64,000 bases of DNA from Bacteroidota bacterium (lineage in GTDB: Bacteria > Bacteroidota > Bacteroidia > Sphingobacteriales > Sphingobacteriaceae). The position numbers were made by a program, and so were the translations under genes. Each line of letters opens with the position of its first letter. Within the stretch, counting starts at the first letter, position 1. The stretch lies in NCBI GenBank assembly GCA_026224775.1, contig JAMFRP010000006.1, positions 124,001 through 188,000 on the forward strand, in the 5' to 3' direction. Below are positions 21,953 through 41,886 of this stretch, in pieces. Under the pieces are notes generated by a model. The model was not told the DNA's origin and did no database searches. It worked only from the letters and a program-made list of their open reading frames with translations.

Positions 21953-22014
21953 TCCAGGTAAAATATCATCATTACAAGTACAAATAAGGAATTGTTTATT
22001 TAATACACCGCTTG

Positions 22015-22821
22015 ATGCGCCCCCTAAAAATCCCCTCATATATAAACAGTTATTTAAAACTCGACTATTTTTCAAAAGATGTGTTAGCGGGCATTAATAA
22101 GCTTTATCATAATTTATTAAAGGGCGAACCGGAAGTTTCAATAGTTATGCCCGCTTATAACGAGGAAACCAATATTGTGCAAACACTTGCATCCCTTTGC
22201 AATAATGTAACAGGCCGGTCTGTTGAGATAATTGTGGTGAATAATAACTCGAAGGATAAAACGGAAGAATTGGTTAAAGCCTGTGGTGTTACCTGCATAT
22301 TAGAAACTACGCAGGGCATCACCCCTGCCCGTAACACAGGATTAGCAAAAGCTACCGGTAAATATATTTTGAATGCCGACGCTGATACTATCTACCCAAA
22401 AGATTGGATAGAGGAAATGGTAAAACCTTTGGATAATGATGCTAACGCTATTACTTATGGCCGATTCTCGTTTATCCCTGTGGGCAGCACAGGCAGGGGT
22501 ACCTATTTTTTTTATGAATATCTCTCTGATCTAAGTAAATTATATAATAAACACTTTAAAACCGAGGCTGTAAATGTTTATGGTTTTAATTCGGGTTTCA
22601 GGCGTGAGCAGGGTTTGCAGGTTGATGGGTTTAACCATCCGCCGGGATCAAACGAAGACGGTTACCTGGCACTAAAATTAAACAATAAAGGGTTTGGAAA
22701 ACTTTACCAGGTAACCAACCCCAAGGCTATAGTTTGGACAACCGACAGGCGTATACAAATTGATGGCGGCCTAATAAAAGGAACAATAAAACGTATAAAA
22801 AGGATATTTAATATTACTTAA
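22015..22821 (+). CDS. Family 2 glycosyltransferase
   Basis: 268 residues from ATG 22015 (a TTG lies directly before it). The GT-A fold opens with VSIVMPAYNEETNI at about 41-54 and continues with EIIVVNNNSKDKTEE. The metal/nucleotide-binding DxD equivalent is NADADT (D122 and D124). The acceptor side shows GFNSGFRREQG and NEDGYLALKL (ED-like catalytic motif). GT2 enzymes transfer a sugar from a nucleotide donor to a lipid-linked or protein acceptor. It lies convergent with the Hpt gene, overlapping it by 8 bases, close to a sugar transferase, which suggests a role in surface glycan assembly. Confidence 0.88.
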   Translation: MRPLKIPSYINSYLKLDYFSKDVLAGINKLYHNLLKGEPEVSIVMPAYNEETNIVQTLASLCNNVTGRSVEIIVVNNNSKDKTEELVKACGVTCILETTQGITPARNTGLAKATGKYILNADADTIYPKDWIEEMVKPLDNDANAITYGRFSFIPVGSTGRGTYFFYEYLSDLSKLYNKHFKTEAVNVYGFNSGFRREQGLQVDGFNHPPGSNEDGYLALKLNNKGFGKLYQVTNPKAIVWTTDRRIQIDGGLIKGTIKRIKRIFNIT

Positions 22822-23167
22822 ACACAGCCGGGAATTCTTCTTTTAAACCCATTAACACATTACCCATCACATTATCAAGTTGATTTACCATCGCTTTAAG
22901 ATAGGATAGATCTGTACCACTGTTATGTTCTAATCCACGTATAACATCTGTTAAGGATGTTATACCAAAATGGCTTAATGAGGGTTTTATTTTGTGTGCC
23001 AACTGGCCAACTTCGGGCCAGTTATTGTTATCGGCTGCAACCTTAAGGGCTGTAATATCATTACTTACAGCATCCGTAAAAACAAGTAAAAGCTTTTCTA
23101 AAAATTCTGGATTATTATCACTTATAGCGTATATGGTAGTTAAATCGTAGGGTTTATTGGTGCTCAT
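22814..23167 (-). CDS. Hpt (histidine phosphotransfer) domain protein
   Basis: 117 residues, a single four-helix Hpt module. The phosphorylatable histidine is H58 in QLAHKIKPSLSHFG, which matches the family pattern HxxKxxxxxxG. Such proteins relay phosphate between receiver domains. The gene is convergent with and overlaps the glycosyltransferase 3' end by 8 bases, and is divergent (about 200 bases) from the response-regulator gene. The position points to a phosphorelay with that receiver. Confidence 0.85.
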   Translation of the reverse strand: MSTNKPYDLTTIYAISDNNPEFLEKLLLVFTDAVSNDITALKVAADNNNWPEVGQLAHKIKPSLSHFGITSLTDVIRGLEHNSGTDLSYLKAMVNQLDNVMGNVLMGLKEEFPAVFK

Positions 23168-23368: not shown

Positions 23369-23767
23369 ATGAACCCAACTACAACTACTAAGCAAATCAA
23401 AATTCTTATTGTTGAGGATGATTTATATATGCAGCTTATTTTAAAAGAGTTTTTAAGCAATCAATATAAAACCGAAATATTTGTTAATGGTATGGATGCT
23501 TTAGCCTCTATACAAAACGGTAACATTCCAGATTTGATCATCTCAGATTTAAATACCTCTAAAATTACAGGTCTTGAATTACTTGCGCAATTGCAGGCGA
23601 GTGACTTTTTTAAATCGATACCGGTTATAATTGTTTCAGGCGAAGACAGTTCTGAAAAAAGAATATTATGTTTGAATAGCGGCGCTGATGATTATATAGT
23701 TAAACCATTTAACCCCGCCGAACTAGAAGCAAGAGTGAGAGTAGTTTTAAGAAGAGTTGGTAAATAG
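23369..23767 (+). CDS. Single-domain response regulator (CheY-like receiver)
   Basis: 132 residues, one receiver domain with no output domain. The acidic pocket is ILIVEDD (D17 and D18), the phospho-acceptor is D60 in DLIISDLN, and the conserved S90 and K112 (VIIVSGED, DYIVKPFNP) are intact. It should be phosphorylated and act by protein contact. It ends 13 bases before the sugar transferase, which itself carries an inactive receiver, so the two are cotranscribed and may interact. Confidence 0.93.
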   Translation: MNPTTTTKQIKILIVEDDLYMQLILKEFLSNQYKTEIFVNGMDALASIQNGNIPDLIISDLNTSKITGLELLAQLQASDFFKSIPVIIVSGEDSSEKRILCLNSGADDYIVKPFNPAELEARVRVVLRRVGK

Positions 23768-23780
23768 TCCCCTTAATACC

Positions 23781-24983
23781 ATGACGGATAGTGCTGTGAT
23801 TGCTAAAGGCGATCAAATAATTGCTTTATTGCGTGCCGATGAAGATTTGTACGCAACCCTTGCAAACGAGTGTGATTTTGGTGGCCGCCAGCTTATCAAT
23901 TTCAAAGATGATGAGGAGTTATTTTCGGAGTGGGAGCAAAAAAAGCACAACATAGTAGCTATAATTTCCAAGAGCGATATACTGGGTAGATATGGTGTAA
24001 ACCTGATTGAAAGCCTTAATAAGCGGCATTTTAATGAGGTGCCGGTACTGTTGATTGGCAAACACATAGACAAAAACCTGCGTAAGATTGCATTAGATGC
24101 AGGAATTACTGATTTCTTCGCAAGGCCTATCAAAGTTAAGAACATTGAAAACAGGGTTAATTTTTTAATTGACCATTGGGGTGAAATACATGTTAAATTA
24201 AAAAAGAACAACCAGGTAGTATATAAAAATCCATTTGGCAAACGCGCGTTTGATATATTTTTTTCCGGGATGGCACTGTTCTTTTTGTCGCCGATATTTT
24301 TGGTAGTTTATATCTGGATAAAATTAGAATCAAAGGGCCCTGCCTTTTATTACTCGTATAGGGTTGGCACAGGTTACCGGGTATTTAAATTTTACAAATT
24401 CAGATCGATGTATGTTAATGCGGATAAACGTTTAAAAGATCTTAAGCATTTAAACCAATACGACATAGAAGCAGGAACGGGAGAAAAAATAACAAATGAC
24501 AGTGGCTTTTTATGTAACGATTGTACCATTTACGGTAAATGCCAGTTCCCGTTATATGCAGATAAGATAAGATGGTGCGAAAAACAGTACCAGGACTCGA
24601 GAAAATTGATTCACGATTCTGCATTTTTTAAGATAAAGAATGATCCGAGGATCACCAAAATTGGCAATTTCATCAGAAATTCGAGTATTGATGAGCTACC
24701 GCAGCTTTGGAACGTATTTATTGGCAACATGAGCATTGTTGGCAACAGGCCCCTACCCTTATATGAAGCTGAAAAACTAACCACCGATAAATATGCCCTA
24801 CGCTTTGCTGCTCCCGCAGGAATAACAGGCCTATGGCAGGTTGAAAAACGCGGTAAGGGCGATATGAGTGAAGAAGAAAGGTTAATGCTCGATAACACTT
24901 ATGCTCAAAATCACAGCATGATTAACGACCTGAAGTTGATATTCAAAACCATCCCCGCCCTATTACAAAAAGAAAACGTTTAG
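23781..24983 (+). CDS. Bacterial sugar transferase fused to a degenerate receiver domain
   Basis: 400 residues from ATG 23781. Residues 12-130 look like a receiver fold, but the phospho-acceptor position is K64 (ISKSD against ISDLN in the neighbouring regulator) and the conserved Lys is Arg (ARPIKV), so it cannot be phosphorylated normally. From about 152 it is a polyisoprenyl-phosphate hexose-1-phosphate transferase of the WcaJ/EpsL type: one hydrophobic helix (about 158-180), KFYKFRSM, DELPQLWNVFIGNMSIVGNRP and GITGLWQV. The usual VGPRP is VGNRP here. An insertion of about 65 residues between KFRSM and the KNDPRIT segment carries C245, C248, C254 and C266. The enzyme would start glycan synthesis on the lipid carrier. 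Confidence 0.88.
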   Translation: MTDSAVIAKGDQIIALLRADEDLYATLANECDFGGRQLINFKDDEELFSEWEQKKHNIVAIISKSDILGRYGVNLIESLNKRHFNEVPVLLIGKHIDKNLRKIALDAGITDFFARPIKVKNIENRVNFLIDHWGEIHVKLKKNNQVVYKNPFGKRAFDIFFSGMALFFLSPIFLVVYIWIKLESKGPAFYYSYRVGTGYRVFKFYKFRSMYVNADKRLKDLKHLNQYDIEAGTGEKITNDSGFLCNDCTIYGKCQFPLYADKIRWCEKQYQDSRKLIHDSAFFKIKNDPRITKIGNFIRNSSIDELPQLWNVFIGNMSIVGNRPLPLYEAEKLTTDKYALRFAAPAGITGLWQVEKRGKGDMSEEERLMLDNTYAQNHSMINDLKLIFKTIPALLQKENV

Positions 24984-35466: not shown

Positions 35467-35641
35467 ACTGACAGGTAATCCTGCAGCAGAAAATTTTAAC
35501 TAATCATTAAATTTTCGCAACAAGAATACATTCTCTTTCGTATAAAAGGCCACTGATAAATAGCAACATACGATATGTTTATGCATTGCTATTTTTATTG
35601 ATAAGCGAAGACTAATTTTTAGCTGAAGCCGGTGTAAGTTG

Positions 35642-38600
35642 ATGAATAGGATTTTTATCAAAAGTGTATTTCTTGTTATACCCCTATTGTTTGCATTTAC
35701 CTCATTAATTGCGCAAACAGTTACTGTTGGTAGTGTTGATCCGGGTCCGTATGGTAGCGGTTCAACTATTGCAGTACCGTTCCATGTAAATGATGCCTCA
35801 GGATGTATACAGCAGGATAACGTGTATAACCTGTATTTATGCGATGCATCGGGTAACCCATTACCAGGCCCCGCTGTTGATACCATCAGGAATTTTTATG
35901 GTACCTTTTTTAATTATACAGTTCCGGCGGGTTTAGCACCGGGAACATATACTTTTTTGATCCAATCATCTGATCCGGCGGTAAGCAGCAACGTGTCAAA
36001 TACGTTTACGGTTACGGCAACCGCGGGAGGAACAGCTTCGGTAACCTGCTCATCAACACAAATTGATAACGCTACTTATCCCCAGGTATTCGGATCATGC
36101 AGCGGCACCAATAACATGCCGTATAATTTTACCAATACTTCATCAAATGGCTCAGCTGCCACAGTTACCTTTTTAAATGAATCGACACAAACAACCGAGG
36201 TTAGCAATGCCAGTTTAGCGCCGGATTATACTTTTACAGCTAAAACTGCCAATTATACTGTAACCGTGAAGGCTGTAAATGGCAGTAATATTGTAAGTAC
36301 CTACGCTTATCAACTGATAAACAACGTTGTAAACGTAACCCTGGGGGCTACAGGTAACCCATCAGTTTGCCTTGTTAACGGGCAGGCACCCCTTACTTAT
36401 AACGTTGATGTATCATCGGCTACCGGTATACAAAATAATTATCCGGGTGACTTATATACATTTAACTGGGGAGATGGTACCAGCAGTACTTATACCCTCT
36501 GCCAAATATTGGCATTCAATGGGCAGATTACGCATATATATACTAAATCATCATGCGGGATTACCTCCAATAGCAGGGTAAATTCATTTGAAATAGATTT
36601 TCAGGCAACAAATTTATATTGCGGAAATATCGGTTCAGCACCTACCAACTACGCAAGGGTATTTCAACAGCCTATAACTAGCTTTACCGGGCCTAAGTTT
36701 GCCTGTACAGGTACCGCTACCTCGTTCATAAATACTTCGCAACCGGGGCCTAACCCTAACGCAACTACAAGCAATTGTACTGAAAACCCAAATGCTTTAT
36801 ATCAATGGTCGGTAGATGGTGTTGTTAAGGAGAGCGATTATCATATAGCTAATAATTTTGTTACCACACTTACCGAAGGTACCCACACGATATCACTTCA
36901 TTTGGAAAACCCTAATACCGCATGTACGCCGAATGATTCAACAATAACTATTTGTGTACAAAATCCACCTAAACCAAGCTTTACTATAACACAAAAAAAT
37001 ATTTGCATAGGTGACGGGCCTATAACACCAACAAACACATCTGTTATTGATTCAACCTGCAACAATCAAAATACTTATAAATGGACTGTGACGCCATCTG
37101 CAGGTGTCACTTATAACGCCAGCAGCGCCCAACCTGCAATAACATTTACTAAATCGGGGATATACACAGTTGGCATGTCGGTAACAACGGTTAGCTGCGG
37201 AACGGTTGTTGCATCTGCAGTTGATACTATTGTAGTAAACACAACTCCGGTAGCAACTTTATCCGCTGATTTTTCTACATGTGGAAATAACCAGACGTTA
37301 AGTTTTGATTCCGTAACTACACGACAAACTTATACCATTTTAAGCGGCACAACACAACCGCAGGCGAATACCTATACATGGAACGTTACAGGCGGCGCAT
37401 TTAGCTATGCTGCCGGATATACCCAGAATAGCAAATACCCTCATATTATTTTTAATGATTATGCTACTTACACTATTACAGTAACACAGCAAAACAATTG
37501 CGGATCAACCACATCGGCACCACAGCATATTACATTTCAGCAAGCCCCTACTGTTGTTGCAGGCAACGATACTACCATTTGCGCGGGTACATCGGCTCTT
37601 TTAAGAGGCAAAATTACCGGGAGCGGATTGCTTAGTTATAAATGGATAGGTGGCAACGGCACTTATACGCCTAGTCCCGATTCATTAAACACAACTTATA
37701 CTCCATCCGCTGCTGAAGTTAGCGCCGGGCATGTAACCATTACTTTGCAAGCCACCACATCGGTAGCCGCGCCTTGTAATTTGGTAAACAACAGTCTGAT
37801 CATCACTATAACCCCAACTGGAAAGATCACCAGTGCACTCAATAAAACTATTTGCACTAATCAAGAGCTAAATTACCAGATCACATCAAGCAGTTCCCCG
37901 AGCACTTACACCTGGACAGCACAACTTATATCAGGGTCGGCAAGCGGCTTTTCGGCATCGGGCACCAGTAGTAAGATTACCGACTCGCTCATCAACACTG
38001 ATCCTACGGCGAGCACAAATGCTGTTATCGCTTATACTATCACCCCTATCAGCAGTTTGGGGTGTGTCGGAACGCCATCAACCTTAAATGTTACGGTAAC
38101 ACCGCTACCAATTCTTACGGCTACTGCAGCAAACCCGCTTATATGCAGTAACCAGCCTGCCAATATTACCTTAACAACAAAACTTAGCGGTGCAACTTAC
38201 ACCTGGACAAGTACTGCACCGACAAACATCACCGGTAACTCAAACCAAACCACCACTGTAAATACAGCTGAAATAAAAGACTTGTTGGTTAATAACGGCA
38301 CGACCCCGGCAATCGTTACTTATGTTATTACCCCTCTTAGTAGTAGTGGTTGCCAGGGTGCACCTATAACGGTGTCTATAACCGTACAACCCTTGCCCGT
38401 AACTGCTTACGCGGGTCCGGATGCAGCTATATGCGGTATTAGCACCTATACACTTCAAGGTAATTCACCGGGGTTTGGAAGTGGTAAATGGACTGTAATT
38501 TCAGGTAGTAACGTTACTTTCACTAATGATACCATACCTAATACAACTGTAAACGGCCTTGTTGGCGGAAATATTTACCAATTTCAGTGGACAATTACGG

Positions 38601-40846
38601 CTGCGCCGGGATGTCAGTCGCAAAATACAGTAACTATAACTGTTAATCAAGCCACTGTTCCGGGTGTAACAAGTTCGACAAATCCAACAACCGTTTGCGC
38701 GAATAGTAACAGTGGATTAATATCGCTTACGGGCCAAACCGGAAAGGTATTACACTGGCAAAAATCGATAGATAATGGTGTAACTTTTCAAACCATCACT
38801 CCAATAAATACTACAAACTCACTTATATATAATAACTTAACTCAAACCACAAAATACGAGGCTGTGGTACAAAATGCCAGTTGCGATATCTTAACATCTA
38901 CCCCTATTACCATTACGGTAAACCAGCCCGCACCAACATCAATTGCCGGTAAGGATACAGCACTTTGCAGCGCAACCAGCTATCAGTTAAACGGCAATAA
39001 CCCGGGCACCTTCGCGGCAGCGTGGAGGCAAACTTCGGGGCCAGCGGTAGCTTTGGCCGATTCAACGAATTATCAAACCGTTGTAAGCGGTTTACAAGGC
39101 GGCAACGTTTATACATTTACCTGGGTGATAAAAGGCGTATCGCCATGCTCTGATAGCCAGTCGCAGGTTAATATTACCGACAATGCCGATGTAATAGCAA
39201 GTTTTACGGATAATGTTATTAACTCATGCGGTTCACAAACGGTTACCTTTACAAATACATCAAACAATCAATCCGGGGCTTCATTTTTATGGAATTTTGG
39301 TGATGGGACAACATCAACCTCGGCAAGTCCACAGCATTTTTTTAAAGAAACAACAGATGGTACTGATACTGCTTATGTAGTATCAGTAAGCGTAATAAGT
39401 AACTGTAAGCAACGTCCGCTGGTTTATGATACCGTACACATCAAATCCGACAAGGTAATAGCCGCGATTCTACCGCAACAAACAACAGGGTGCGCACCGT
39501 TCACTTTAGATGTACGAAACGTTTCGCCGGGCAACAACATATCGTACAAATTTTATTTATATAGCGGCAATACATTAGTGCAGGAAATAGATAAAACGGA
39601 CAAAACCGATGCCATATTTACCTCCATTAATGTAAACACGCCTACACAATATGCCGTGTATATGACAGCAGTTGGACCTTGCGGCACATCGGCGACAACT
39701 AATAATATACCAATAGTAGTTTCTCCGCCAACAGTAACCCCGCAAATGTATATCTTAAACAATGTACTTTCCGGTTGCGTACCGTTGAGTGTATCATTTG
39801 TAAATAATTCAAACGGTGGCAGTTTTTATCATTATAATATTTATGATGCTAACGGAAATTTAATTGAACAACCAGTTGCGGGCACTGCTAATTTATCTTA
39901 CATATTTACTAACCCGGGCAGTTATTCAGTAAGCATAACGGCGGCAAACGATTGTTCGCCACAAGGCATTGAATCAGCAAGAACAGCTGTTACGGTTTAT
40001 CCTGTCCCGCAACCGGCGTTTGCGGCAAGTGCCGATTGTGCTGCCACGGTATCTTTTTTAAATACCACTACCCAAAACGGTACTACCCCACTCGGATCAT
40101 TAAGTTATACCTGGAATTTTGGTGACGGATCGACACCGGAGTATAGCTTTACTCCCAAACCGCATCATTATGATTTTAAGAAATCGCCATTTACGGTTAC
40201 GTTAACGGCAACTAATACGGTTAGCGGTTGTGCTGATTCAACAGTACAAACTATAAATGTGAATGCCCCTTTAATTGCGCAGTTTACCGAACAACCTGAT
40301 AGTGTAGTTACTATACCCAACTATGAGTTCTCGTTTATTGATCAAAGTACAGGTCCGCCATCTGGCTGGGCATGGGATTTTGGTGATGGTACAACCTCTA
40401 CAACCCGAAACCCCTCGCATCGTTATTCTGACACTGGTTACTACCAGGTAAAGCTGATCATTACCAATAATGGATTATGCAACAGTGAGGTTACACATAT
40501 TGTAAGAGTTACCGGTACACCTGGCCAACTATTTTTACCCAACGCCTTTATGCCAACCGGTTCCGCTTATGACTTGCGGTTATTTATGGCTAAAGGCGCA
40601 GGTATTAAAACATGGGAGCTACAAATATTCAATAATTACGGGCAATTGCTTTGGGAAACCAATAAACTTGATAGCAAGGGATCGCCGGTTGAGGGTTGGG
40701 ATGGCACATTCAGAGGTGTATTGATGCAGCAAGGGGCATATATATGGCAGGCATCGGCCACTTTTATAAACGGGTCGGTTTGGAAGGGGATGTCCTACAA
40801 TAATTCTTTACCCAAAAGAACGGGAACAGTTAATTTAATAAGATGA
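35642..40846 (+). CDS. Large PKD-repeat protein with CHU_C/gliding-motility C-terminal domain
   Basis: 1,734 residues from ATG 35642 (TTG directly before it). A signal peptide of about 24 residues (ending SLIAQ) is followed by many Ig/PKD-like modules; WNFGDGTTSTSASPQ, WNFGDGSTPEYSF and WDFGDGTTSTTRNPS are clear PKD cores. Two modules of about 105 residues near the middle repeat the pattern AGxDxAxC...YxLxGNxPG...GLxGGNxYxFxW. The last 95 residues (LFLPNAFMPTGSAYDLRLF ... GVLMQQGAYIWQASATF) are the CHU_C type B sorting domain that directs T9SS secretion. The protein should be a surface adhesin related to SprB. The next gene overlaps its stop (ATGA). Confidence 0.92.
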   Translation: MNRIFIKSVFLVIPLLFAFTSLIAQTVTVGSVDPGPYGSGSTIAVPFHVNDASGCIQQDNVYNLYLCDASGNPLPGPAVDTIRNFYGTFFNYTVPAGLAPGTYTFLIQSSDPAVSSNVSNTFTVTATAGGTASVTCSSTQIDNATYPQVFGSCSGTNNMPYNFTNTSSNGSAATVTFLNESTQTTEVSNASLAPDYTFTAKTANYTVTVKAVNGSNIVSTYAYQLINNVVNVTLGATGNPSVCLVNGQAPLTYNVDVSSATGIQNNYPGDLYTFNWGDGTSSTYTLCQILAFNGQITHIYTKSSCGITSNSRVNSFEIDFQATNLYCGNIGSAPTNYARVFQQPITSFTGPKFACTGTATSFINTSQPGPNPNATTSNCTENPNALYQWSVDGVVKESDYHIANNFVTTLTEGTHTISLHLENPNTACTPNDSTITICVQNPPKPSFTITQKNICIGDGPITPTNTSVIDSTCNNQNTYKWTVTPSAGVTYNASSAQPAITFTKSGIYTVGMSVTTVSCGTVVASAVDTIVVNTTPVATLSADFSTCGNNQTLSFDSVTTRQTYTILSGTTQPQANTYTWNVTGGAFSYAAGYTQNSKYPHIIFNDYATYTITVTQQNNCGSTTSAPQHITFQQAPTVVAGNDTTICAGTSALLRGKITGSGLLSYKWIGGNGTYTPSPDSLNTTYTPSAAEVSAGHVTITLQATTSVAAPCNLVNNSLIITITPTGKITSALNKTICTNQELNYQITSSSSPSTYTWTAQLISGSASGFSASGTSSKITDSLINTDPTASTNAVIAYTITPISSLGCVGTPSTLNVTVTPLPILTATAANPLICSNQPANITLTTKLSGATYTWTSTAPTNITGNSNQTTTVNTAEIKDLLVNNGTTPAIVTYVITPLSSSGCQGAPITVSITVQPLPVTAYAGPDAAICGISTYTLQGNSPGFGSGKWTVISGSNVTFTNDTIPNTTVNGLVGGNIYQFQWTITAAPGCQSQNTVTITVNQATVPGVTSSTNPTTVCANSNSGLISLTGQTGKVLHWQKSIDNGVTFQTITPINTTNSLIYNNLTQTTKYEAVVQNASCDILTSTPITITVNQPAPTSIAGKDTALCSATSYQLNGNNPGTFAAAWRQTSGPAVALADSTNYQTVVSGLQGGNVYTFTWVIKGVSPCSDSQSQVNITDNADVIASFTDNVINSCGSQTVTFTNTSNNQSGASFLWNFGDGTTSTSASPQHFFKETTDGTDTAYVVSVSVISNCKQRPLVYDTVHIKSDKVIAAILPQQTTGCAPFTLDVRNVSPGNNISYKFYLYSGNTLVQEIDKTDKTDAIFTSINVNTPTQYAVYMTAVGPCGTSATTNNIPIVVSPPTVTPQMYILNNVLSGCVPLSVSFVNNSNGGSFYHYNIYDANGNLIEQPVAGTANLSYIFTNPGSYSVSITAANDCSPQGIESARTAVTVYPVPQPAFAASADCAATVSFLNTTTQNGTTPLGSLSYTWNFGDGSTPEYSFTPKPHHYDFKKSPFTVTLTATNTVSGCADSTVQTINVNAPLIAQFTEQPDSVVTIPNYEFSFIDQSTGPPSGWAWDFGDGTTSTTRNPSHRYSDTGYYQVKLIITNNGLCNSEVTHIVRVTGTPGQLFLPNAFMPTGSAYDLRLFMAKGAGIKTWELQIFNNYGQLLWETNKLDSKGSPVEGWDGTFRGVLMQQGAYIWQASATFINGSVWKGMSYNNSLPKRTGTVNLIR

Positions 40847-41886
40847 TGGATTTGAGAAAGCGATATATATATTATTTTATTATTGTTTTGCTATTTGCAG
40901 GATTTAATGCCCGTGGGCAGGATCACTTGTATTCGCAATATTTTAATGCCCCGGTGTATCTAAACCCGGCTTTAAATGGCCAGTTTCAGGGTGATTTTAG
41001 GGCGAATTTTAATTATCGTACACAATACACCACGTCTGGTAGTCCGTCCAATTATTTTACCGCCGAGATGGATTATAATATTCCTCAATTTGGTGGCGGC
41101 GTAGGCTTAATGTTTAACCGAAGCAGCGAGGGTGGCCAATTTTTGAATACAAATAGCATAGCAGGCATATACTCGTATAGTGTGGGGTCTGATGATTATA
41201 TACTATCGTTCGGGATACAGGCGGGTGTTGGCAACAGGAATATTGATTACAGTAAGTTGGTATTTGATGACCAAATAGATCCGCAACTCGGGATAATTCC
41301 GGGTGCTTCGTCAGCGGCAGATGCTTTAGCATTTAACAATAAATATTATTTTGATACCGGTGCCGGGATTAACCTGGTGATCGGAAATTTTATGGTTGGC
41401 GGGGCAACGCAGCATCTTAACAGCCCTAATGATTCATTTACAGGCGTACCCGTTAAACTACCATTCCGTACTACGGCCTATATGACATACCGGCTGGACC
41501 TGGACCCTGATGAGAATATGACCGATGATGAGAAATCCTATTTAATCCCCTCTGTAGTGTATTACAGGCAATCTTCGTCACAGTCAACAGCTGCAGGGCT
41601 TGAATATAAGCACCGCAGTGTAAGCGCCGGGTTAATGTATCGTTCTGGCGGGCAAAGTGGCCCGAGCGCGCTTGTACTATCGCTTGTGTTTGATCTGTTC
41701 GTAAACAGAGACTCGGGAGAGAAATTCAGATTGGGAGTAAGCCATGATGCGCAAGTTTCAGGTCTGGGTTACGGCGGCACAAGCGGCAGCAGCGAAGGAA
41801 GTTTAAATTATCAAACCGTAAACCCTAATCGTGTGGACACACCTCCTAAATTTGAGGGTAGTACACATTGTTATGATTTTTATTAA
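40843..41886 (+). CDS. PorP/SprF family type IX secretion membrane protein
   Basis: 347 residues. A signal peptide (ending NARG) is followed by the family opening DHLYSQYFNAPVYLNPALNG and a series of amphipathic strands ending in an aromatic residue, consistent with an outer-membrane barrel. PorP/SprF proteins are typically paired with the T9SS substrate they attach to the cell surface. Here the start codon overlaps the adhesin stop by four bases, which supports that pairing. Either of two adjacent ATGs (40843 or 40846) could be used. Confidence 0.93.
   Translation: MMDLRKRYIYYFIIVLLFAGFNARGQDHLYSQYFNAPVYLNPALNGQFQGDFRANFNYRTQYTTSGSPSNYFTAEMDYNIPQFGGGVGLMFNRSSEGGQFLNTNSIAGIYSYSVGSDDYILSFGIQAGVGNRNIDYSKLVFDDQIDPQLGIIPGASSAADALAFNNKYYFDTGAGINLVIGNFMVGGATQHLNSPNDSFTGVPVKLPFRTTAYMTYRLDLDPDENMTDDEKSYLIPSVVYYRQSSSQSTAAGLEYKHRSVSAGLMYRSGGQSGPSALVLSLVFDLFVNRDSGEKFRLGVSHDAQVSGLGYGGTSGSSEGSLNYQTVNPNRVDTPPKFEGSTHCYDFY

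Follow-up and report, generated by a model that had tools for sequence, protein, structure and literature searches.

The locus described here raises the question of how the first step of glycan synthesis might be tied to a phosphorylation signal. In the window (the whole stretch of 64,000 nucleotides of Bacteroidota DNA that was analysed), a single-domain response regulator is encoded directly upstream of a sugar transferase whose N-terminus resembles a second receiver, degenerate at the site of phosphorylation. Undecaprenyl phosphate, the predicted acceptor of this enzyme, is shared with cell-wall synthesis, and it therefore matters where the cell spends it. The gene pair is real, conserved and easy to assay, and comprises the following:

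23369..23767, + strand: single-domain response regulator (PF00072, E 7e-24)
23781..24983, + strand: pseudo-receiver/phosphoglycosyl transferase coding sequence, 400 aa

The initiating transferase

The earlier note had placed a sugar transferase at 23781-24983, and the open reading frame, its frame and its ATG were confirmed, together with a match to PF02397 (Bac_transf) at E 3e-58. The start at ATG 23781 is right, because the upstream alternative, TTG 23757, would run into the preceding gene, and because the closest named homologues, from Mucilaginibacter sp. L196 and E4BP6 (98% identity across residues 1-400), align from M1. A scan for promoters and terminators returned no more sites than were found in shuffled sequences. 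Two features define the enzymatic half of the protein:

24234..24971, + strand: monotopic phosphoglycosyl transferase (monoPGT) catalytic domain, residues 152-397 (PF02397; match to PglC, 8e37)
24690..24695, + strand: catalytic dyad Asp304-Glu305

The catalytic half of an AlphaFold2 model of the protein matches PglC (8e37) with VIA Z 19.3 at 2.6 Å over 179 residues, and the residues of the active site are intact; the fusion of a pseudo-receiver to such a transferase, proposed in the earlier note, is supported. Each member of the dyad is present in 99 of 100 aligned rows, D158 and P171 of the DX12P re-entrant helix motif occur in all 100, and the substrate-orienting residues K206 and R299, which were equated with K59 and R88 of PglC by our own numbering offset, are each found in 99. 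These motifs, including the DE dyad, which is named from PglC, are defined as in PMC12802240. The re-entrant helix itself spans residues 152-183 in the model. Ahead of it lies just the receiver fold: the four-helix transmembrane bundle is absent from the model, and a Pfam scan of the protein at E up to 1 returned no DUF of the WbaP/EpsZ type. Lacking both bundle and DUF, the enzyme is thus classed as a small monoPGT and not as a large monoPGT of the EpsZ type. By domain match and model, the 400-residue protein is a small monoPGT (PF02397) behind a receiver fold, predicted to transfer sugar-1-phosphate to undecaprenyl phosphate. It resembles WbaP (8t53) and PglC in the fold of the catalytic domain and in active-site residues; PglC, however, consists of the catalytic domain alone, to which the window protein adds the receiver fold. 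A sugar transferase encoded on Synechocystis pSYSM matches residues 48-399.

A receiver fold without its phosphorylation residues

N-terminal to the catalytic domain are the following elements:

23808..24179, + strand: pseudo-receiver domain, residues 10-133, a (beta-alpha)5 fold (AlphaFold2, VIA, hhalign)
23970..23972, + strand: codon of K64, at the phospho-acceptor Asp position (alignment to receivers and homologues)
24135..24230, + strand: elongated alpha5 (model helix 119-144) and linker to residue 150 (model secondary structure)

The Pfam Response_reg profile finds the N-terminus at E 4.9e-6 with 27.1 bits, below its curated cut-off of 30.2 bits; it also matches 13 of the 60 members of alignment A1 at E 0.001, and 3 of the 15 members of a mixed alignment, A2, at E 0.01. 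The AlphaFold2 model, which was built from a 60-row alignment (pLDDT 78.1 and pTM 0.57 for the whole), renders residues 12-144 as five strands and five helices in the alternating (beta-alpha)5 order, with a block pLDDT of 88-96 for residues 11-130. Solved receivers match this domain, among the matches listed, at VIA Z 13.3-14.5 with 115-145 residues aligned, so that the receiver fold for which the earlier note had sought a structure prediction is indeed predicted. In the model, alpha5 and the linker form the junction between the receiver fold and the re-entrant membrane helix.

The relationship of this domain to the regulator encoded upstream is a distant one. It had been suggested that the N-terminal ~130 residues align with the upstream receiver; pairwise alignment does not bear this out (BLASTP E 14), and the kinship holds at the level of the profile (hhalign 97.3%) and of the fold only, so the domain is not a recent tandem copy. 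A recent tandem duplication of the upstream receiver, considered as an origin, is ruled out by the same lack of pairwise similarity. Elsewhere in the family, the N-termini of a group of 360-residue transferases match the receiver profile well (hhalign 96.9%), despite the few Pfam matches in A2. Those of a Bacteroidales type (L119, L120, L139, L190-L192) match it weakly (hhalign 37%), and can be described as receiver-like on placement and pattern alone.

The key residues of receiver phosphorylation are missing from the N-terminal fold. In the window protein the Asp position is occupied by K64 and the conserved Lys position by R115, and both replacements reported in the earlier note were confirmed. 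Among 97 distinct close homologues (the window included, the more distant rows L032-L034 excluded), position 64 holds Q in 50, E in 12, Y in 10, N in 9, K in 6, H in 3, V, A and D in 2 each and F in 1, and position 115 holds L in 50, I in 10, Q in 9, R in 6 and K in 5, along with other residues. What is conserved across close homologues at position 64 is therefore the avoidance of Asp (95/97) and not the Lys (6/97). Neither outcome that would have refuted the earlier note, a missing receiver fold or homologues that retain the Asp, was observed. The two close homologues that keep the Asp, from Ferruginibacter (L110) and a Ferruginibacter-type organism (L113), both lack the acidic pair. Their pseudo-receivers retain Asp together with Lys, a state that is possibly an intermediate in the decay of a receiver.

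A wider comparison covered 134 distinct transferases, the window included, that have a receiver-length N-terminus and a neighbouring regulator. Excluded were L009, L031, L038, L039 and L041, which the motif pattern missed, the split frames of L121 and L122, and also L081 and L108, at which no regulator was counted. None of the 134 N-termini has the acidic pair, Asp, Ser/Thr and Lys all together, and the Asp occurs in 11, every one of them without the acidic pair; these counts come from a single MAFFT alignment, and the placement of the most divergent N-termini in it is uncertain. The domain thus appears phosphorylation-dead, as had been claimed, and the trait of the family is the absence of the phosphorylation set, K64 being one of several replacements. 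In a sister type of 345-371 residues, Glu stands at the Asp site in 6 of 11 distinct members. Glu at this site can mimic phosphorylation.

A conserved pair of regulator and transferase

The regulator encoded upstream is complete, with E16, D17 and D18, the phospho-acceptor D60 (codon 23546-23548), S90 and K112, and its stop codon lies 13 nt from the ATG of the transferase. Across the 134 distinct pairs, the acidic pair, Asp, Ser/Thr and Lys are found together in 132 regulators, and a KPFNP sequence after beta5 is common to 130. At 78 of 80 named loci, which come from Mucilaginibacter, Pedobacter, Filimonas, Sediminibacterium, Ferruginibacter and others, the gene immediately 5′ of the transferase has the same orientation and encodes a single-domain response regulator. 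One of the two exceptions, L108, is at a contig edge with 170 nt of upstream sequence, and the other, L081, has a disrupted regulator frame. The latter (L081:5300-6050), which comes from a metagenome assembly, precedes a transferase of full length and may be either a real loss or an assembly error. In L121 and L122, by comparison, the transferase is apparently split over two frames 3′ of a full-length regulator.

The earlier note had proposed a search for the receiver-transferase fusion in other Bacteroidota, and such fusions were found, 134 distinct ones with a neighbouring regulator being counted, the window included. In a phylum sample of 30 loci, the window's own among them (from a search at E 1e-60 that had matches in 29 of 296 genomes), all 20 loci whose transferase has a receiver-length N-terminus also have the regulator, as do 4 of the 10 other loci (Fisher p 3.5e-4, in a test that ignores phylogeny, related genomes not being independent, and on loci picked by similarity to the transferase family). 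A class sample (49 matches at E 1e-95, spread over 47 of 395 genomes) added 23 newly numbered loci, all with the regulator, two of these proteins being already in the set; some of the other matches had been covered before. Within the window's own genome, the 465-795 nt examined upstream of its two large transferases contain no such regulator. No frame that fuses regulator, pseudo-receiver and transferase was seen among the matches listed, the longest of which is 465 aa, and among the papers listed by our search of the open-access literature none was recognised as a description of regulator-transferase pairing in Bacteroidota. Records labelled Phocaeicola massiliensis, Parabacteroides distasonis, Bacteroides finegoldii and Hymenobacter yonginensis also contain pairs of regulator and sugar transferase (L190-L193), the Hymenobacter enzyme (279 aa by annotation) being too short for a receiver domain.

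The association is not confined to transferases with the N-terminal domain. The regulator also adjoins enzymes without a receiver-length N-terminus at L137, L140, L141, L147 and Hymenobacter L193, and the pseudo-receiver is therefore not required for the association; it may be an added docking surface rather than the original one. These same loci lend some credit to an alternative in which the direct target of the regulator is the catalytic domain, or some other pathway protein, and the pseudo-receiver serves as a structural spacer or dimerisation module. So does the EpsZ-EpsW model of PMC12802240, in which EpsW contacts both the DUF and the catalytic domain of its partner. We nevertheless regard such an arrangement as unlikely: regulators are in excess at sampled loci with a receiver-length N-terminus, and profiles still recognise the domain as a receiver across large divergence, if weakly in the Bacteroidales type.

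It could also be that the two genes share an operon for reasons of expression, and that the degenerate domain is a drifting relic. Pair spacing is short, mostly <35 nt, as co-transcription predicts, and both alpha1 (1.29 bits) and the linker past alpha5 (1.41 bits) are poorly conserved. Against this, the strands (2.04-3.10 bits) and helices alpha3, alpha4 and alpha5 (2.41-2.61 bits) are conserved, with alpha2 at 1.88 bits, and the pair is retained in differing gene contexts and in Bacteroidales; co-transcription of a relic is accordingly the most improbable of the readings considered here.

Co-divergence of the two partners is less informative than it first appears. Given the catalytic domain, the partial correlation between regulator and pseudo-receiver distances is 0.64 over the 134 distinct pairs, a value reached in 0 of 200 permutations. 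In six subsets that offer a control neighbour gene the correlation is 0.39-0.59, and the control genes themselves give 0.25-0.61 when paired with the pseudo-receiver, and 0.22-0.68 when paired with the regulator. They are comparable to the regulator in 5 of the 6 sets; in the largest (n=49) the gene gives 0.25 versus 0.48 for the regulator. Since neighbouring genes attain like partial correlations, the co-divergence of regulator and pseudo-receiver is not specific.

Upstream signalling

Divergent from the regulator gene is a further candidate component of the pathway:

22814..23167, - strand: stand-alone HPt phosphotransfer protein (PF01627, E 9e-8)

A protein resembling the window HPt is encoded no more than 1.5 kb 5′ of the transferase start at 23 of the 80 named loci, in addition to the window; among these 23 neighbours, 20 are divergent and 3 lie on the same strand. 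The window HPt resembles the HPt ends of hybrid kinases found at the same place in relatives, such as that of L064, which has the order PAS-PAS-HisKA-HATPase-receiver-HPt. In the lineage of the window, the HPt part alone occupies the position of the kinase. A clear ortholog of the relatives' hybrid kinase was not found in the genome, in which the best-scoring match is 36% identical over residues 196-761 of 931.

Known systems and a proposed mechanism

In Myxococcus xanthus, phosphorylated EpsW (EpsW~P) is reported to activate EpsZ post-translationally, on evidence from proximity labelling, heterologous activity and a modelled 2:2 complex, and the authors proposed wider occurrence of such control (mBio 2025; PMC12802240). 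As in that system, a phosphorylatable single-domain regulator accompanies an initiating monoPGT in the window, where the pairing is one of gene adjacency. EpsW and EpsZ belong to an exopolysaccharide pathway that is controlled at its first committed step, a form of control that is putative here. EpsZ, moreover, is a large monoPGT with a four-helix membrane bundle and DUF, whereas in the window enzyme, a small monoPGT, a pseudo-receiver takes their place. Further points of difference are the position of the regulator gene directly upstream, the four-Cys mobile loop described below and an organism within Bacteroidota. That small monoPGTs can carry receiver domains has been noted before (O'Toole, Imperiali and Allen, 2021, PNAS, as cited in PMC12802240).

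A second precedent is PleD of Caulobacter, which consists of receiver, pseudo-receiver and diguanylate cyclase, and in which the phosphorylated receiver is described as acting through the adjoining pseudo-receiver (PMC12632262). The route proposed here, from phosphorylated receiver to pseudo-receiver to enzyme, is similar. PleD, however, is a single chain with a cyclase as its output, and the window has two genes and a transferase; the arrangement is not of the PleD type, because receiver and pseudo-receiver reside in separate genes.

The conserved gene pair and the EpsW~P/EpsZ case together suggest contact control, and by this analogy we consider it moderately probable that the neighbouring phosphorylated regulator controls the transferase through contact with its pseudo-receiver. 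The two genes would then form a switch that acts on glycan initiation. The regulator would be phosphorylated at D60, in the genome of the window probably by way of the divergently encoded HPt protein, which would in turn receive phosphate from a hybrid kinase with its gene at another locus. Because the regulator has no output domain, it would act by docking, and its target would be the pseudo-receiver of the co-operonic transferase, which has kept the receiver fold and lost the phosphorylation residues. Docking could be relayed via the elongated alpha5 to the catalytic domain in the membrane, where it would most likely favour an active, perhaps dimeric, arrangement. In this manner it would set the amount of sugar-1-phosphate that is committed to undecaprenyl phosphate, and the sign would be activation if the analogy with EpsW~P and EpsZ holds. 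The putative dimerisation step has a consideration against it, since small monoPGTs are described as functional monomers, in which control may not involve dimer formation (Discussion of PMC12802240).

Conceivably, the pseudo-receiver could instead be an autonomous sensor of a small ligand (a nucleotide or c-di-GMP, for example), with the regulator directed at another target. There is precedent for this in the DUF of WbaP, which is reported to sense uridine nucleotides, UMP being an inhibitor of full-length WbaP (PMC10942596), and in the binding of ligands by some pseudo-receivers (PMC12632262). We think it rather unlikely for the present family, as it leaves the near-invariable adjacency of a stand-alone receiver unexplained.

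If contact control is correct, the kind of control would itself be one already published, for a single myxobacterium in 2025 (PMC12802240), in which a single-domain regulator acts post-translationally on the initiating enzyme. The present pair would be a variant from Bacteroidota, in which a pseudo-receiver replaces bundle and DUF. The candidate breadth is considerable, with the regulator-transferase pair occurring across much of sampled Bacteroidota, including records labelled as gut Bacteroidales. As the candidate docking domain could probably be produced in isolation, the idea of contact is testable.

A four-cysteine insertion in the mobile loop

Between the KFRSM and DPR motifs of the catalytic domain is an insertion of ~55 residues:

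24447..24617, + strand: insertion in the active-site mobile loop, residues 223-279 (WbaP alignment; PMC10942596)

It contains Cys245, Cys248, Cys254 and Cys266 (codons 24513-24578), which, together with His223 and Asp261, are invariant in 97 of 97 close homologues. Conservation is 3.00 bits over residues 244-268 versus 1.16 bits over residues 228-243 before the cysteines, the least conserved of the stretches measured, and AlphaFold2 pLDDT is about 38-60 over the insertion. By our own mapping, which shifted the construct numbering to set the DX12P Asp at 284, the insertion corresponds to WbaP 344-358 and would therefore lie in the active-site mobile loop. Residues 337-369 of WbaP are described as analogous to the PglC mobile loop, which is implicated in formation of the substrate pocket (PMC10942596). 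WbaP, by contrast, is reported to have a helix-turn-helix in the loop where the window family has the Cys insertion.

The four invariant cysteines are probably a metal site, and constitute a candidate second control point open to experiment. A matching four-Cys pattern is found in small transferases without an N-terminus of receiver length and without a regulator next to them (L136, L142, L143 and L144), and is missing from several that have both (L130, L131 and L148, for example). The pattern is thus distributed independently of the pseudo-receiver. A more elaborate scheme, which we put forward as a doubtful one, would be a coincidence gate present throughout Bacteroidota. The phosphorylated stand-alone receiver would provide one input by docking on the pseudo-receiver, as in a PleD divided between two genes, and a metal or iron-sulfur site formed by the four cysteines of the mobile loop would provide the other. 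If true, the four-Cys site would make the transferase metal- or redox-responsive, and a polymer would be started when the two inputs agree.

Gene context and a candidate polymer

A frequent neighbour of the pair is the following:

22012..22821, + strand: family 2 glycosyltransferase (its cluster is found in 54 of 81 stretches)

In Sediminibacterium loci, the genes 3′ of the pair encode an outer-membrane efflux protein, a Wzc-like protein, a family 2 glycosyltransferase and a Wzy_C protein; the Wzc-like assignment is our own reading, Pfam giving a weak match to CbiA (22.1 bits, cut-off 25.4). A matching cluster, with flippase, Wzy_C-type, Wzc-like and efflux genes, is located in the genome of the window at a distance of about 120 kb on its own contig (C50:14-34 kb, L187). 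No initiating transferase of the window type was seen in the stretch that contains this cluster, and a search of the genome at E 0.001 gave only three transferase places among the matches listed. It seems plausible from these observations that the window transferase serves the polymer of the C50:14-34 kb cluster.

Near the transferase in several relatives (L037, L041, L045, L064 and L109), three consecutive genes encode a receiver-SpoIIE phosphatase, a STAS protein and a small protein that has no match in Pfam, which looks like a partner-switch set and would be a second candidate layer of control. Beside the polysaccharide cluster of the window's own genome (edge of L187, C50 near 14 kb) lie the small protein and a portion of the phosphatase. 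Farther downstream in the window, at 35639-41886, a gene for a 1735-residue PKD-repeat protein is followed by one for a PorP/SprF-type protein, an order that we take to be a common arrangement of type IX secretion.
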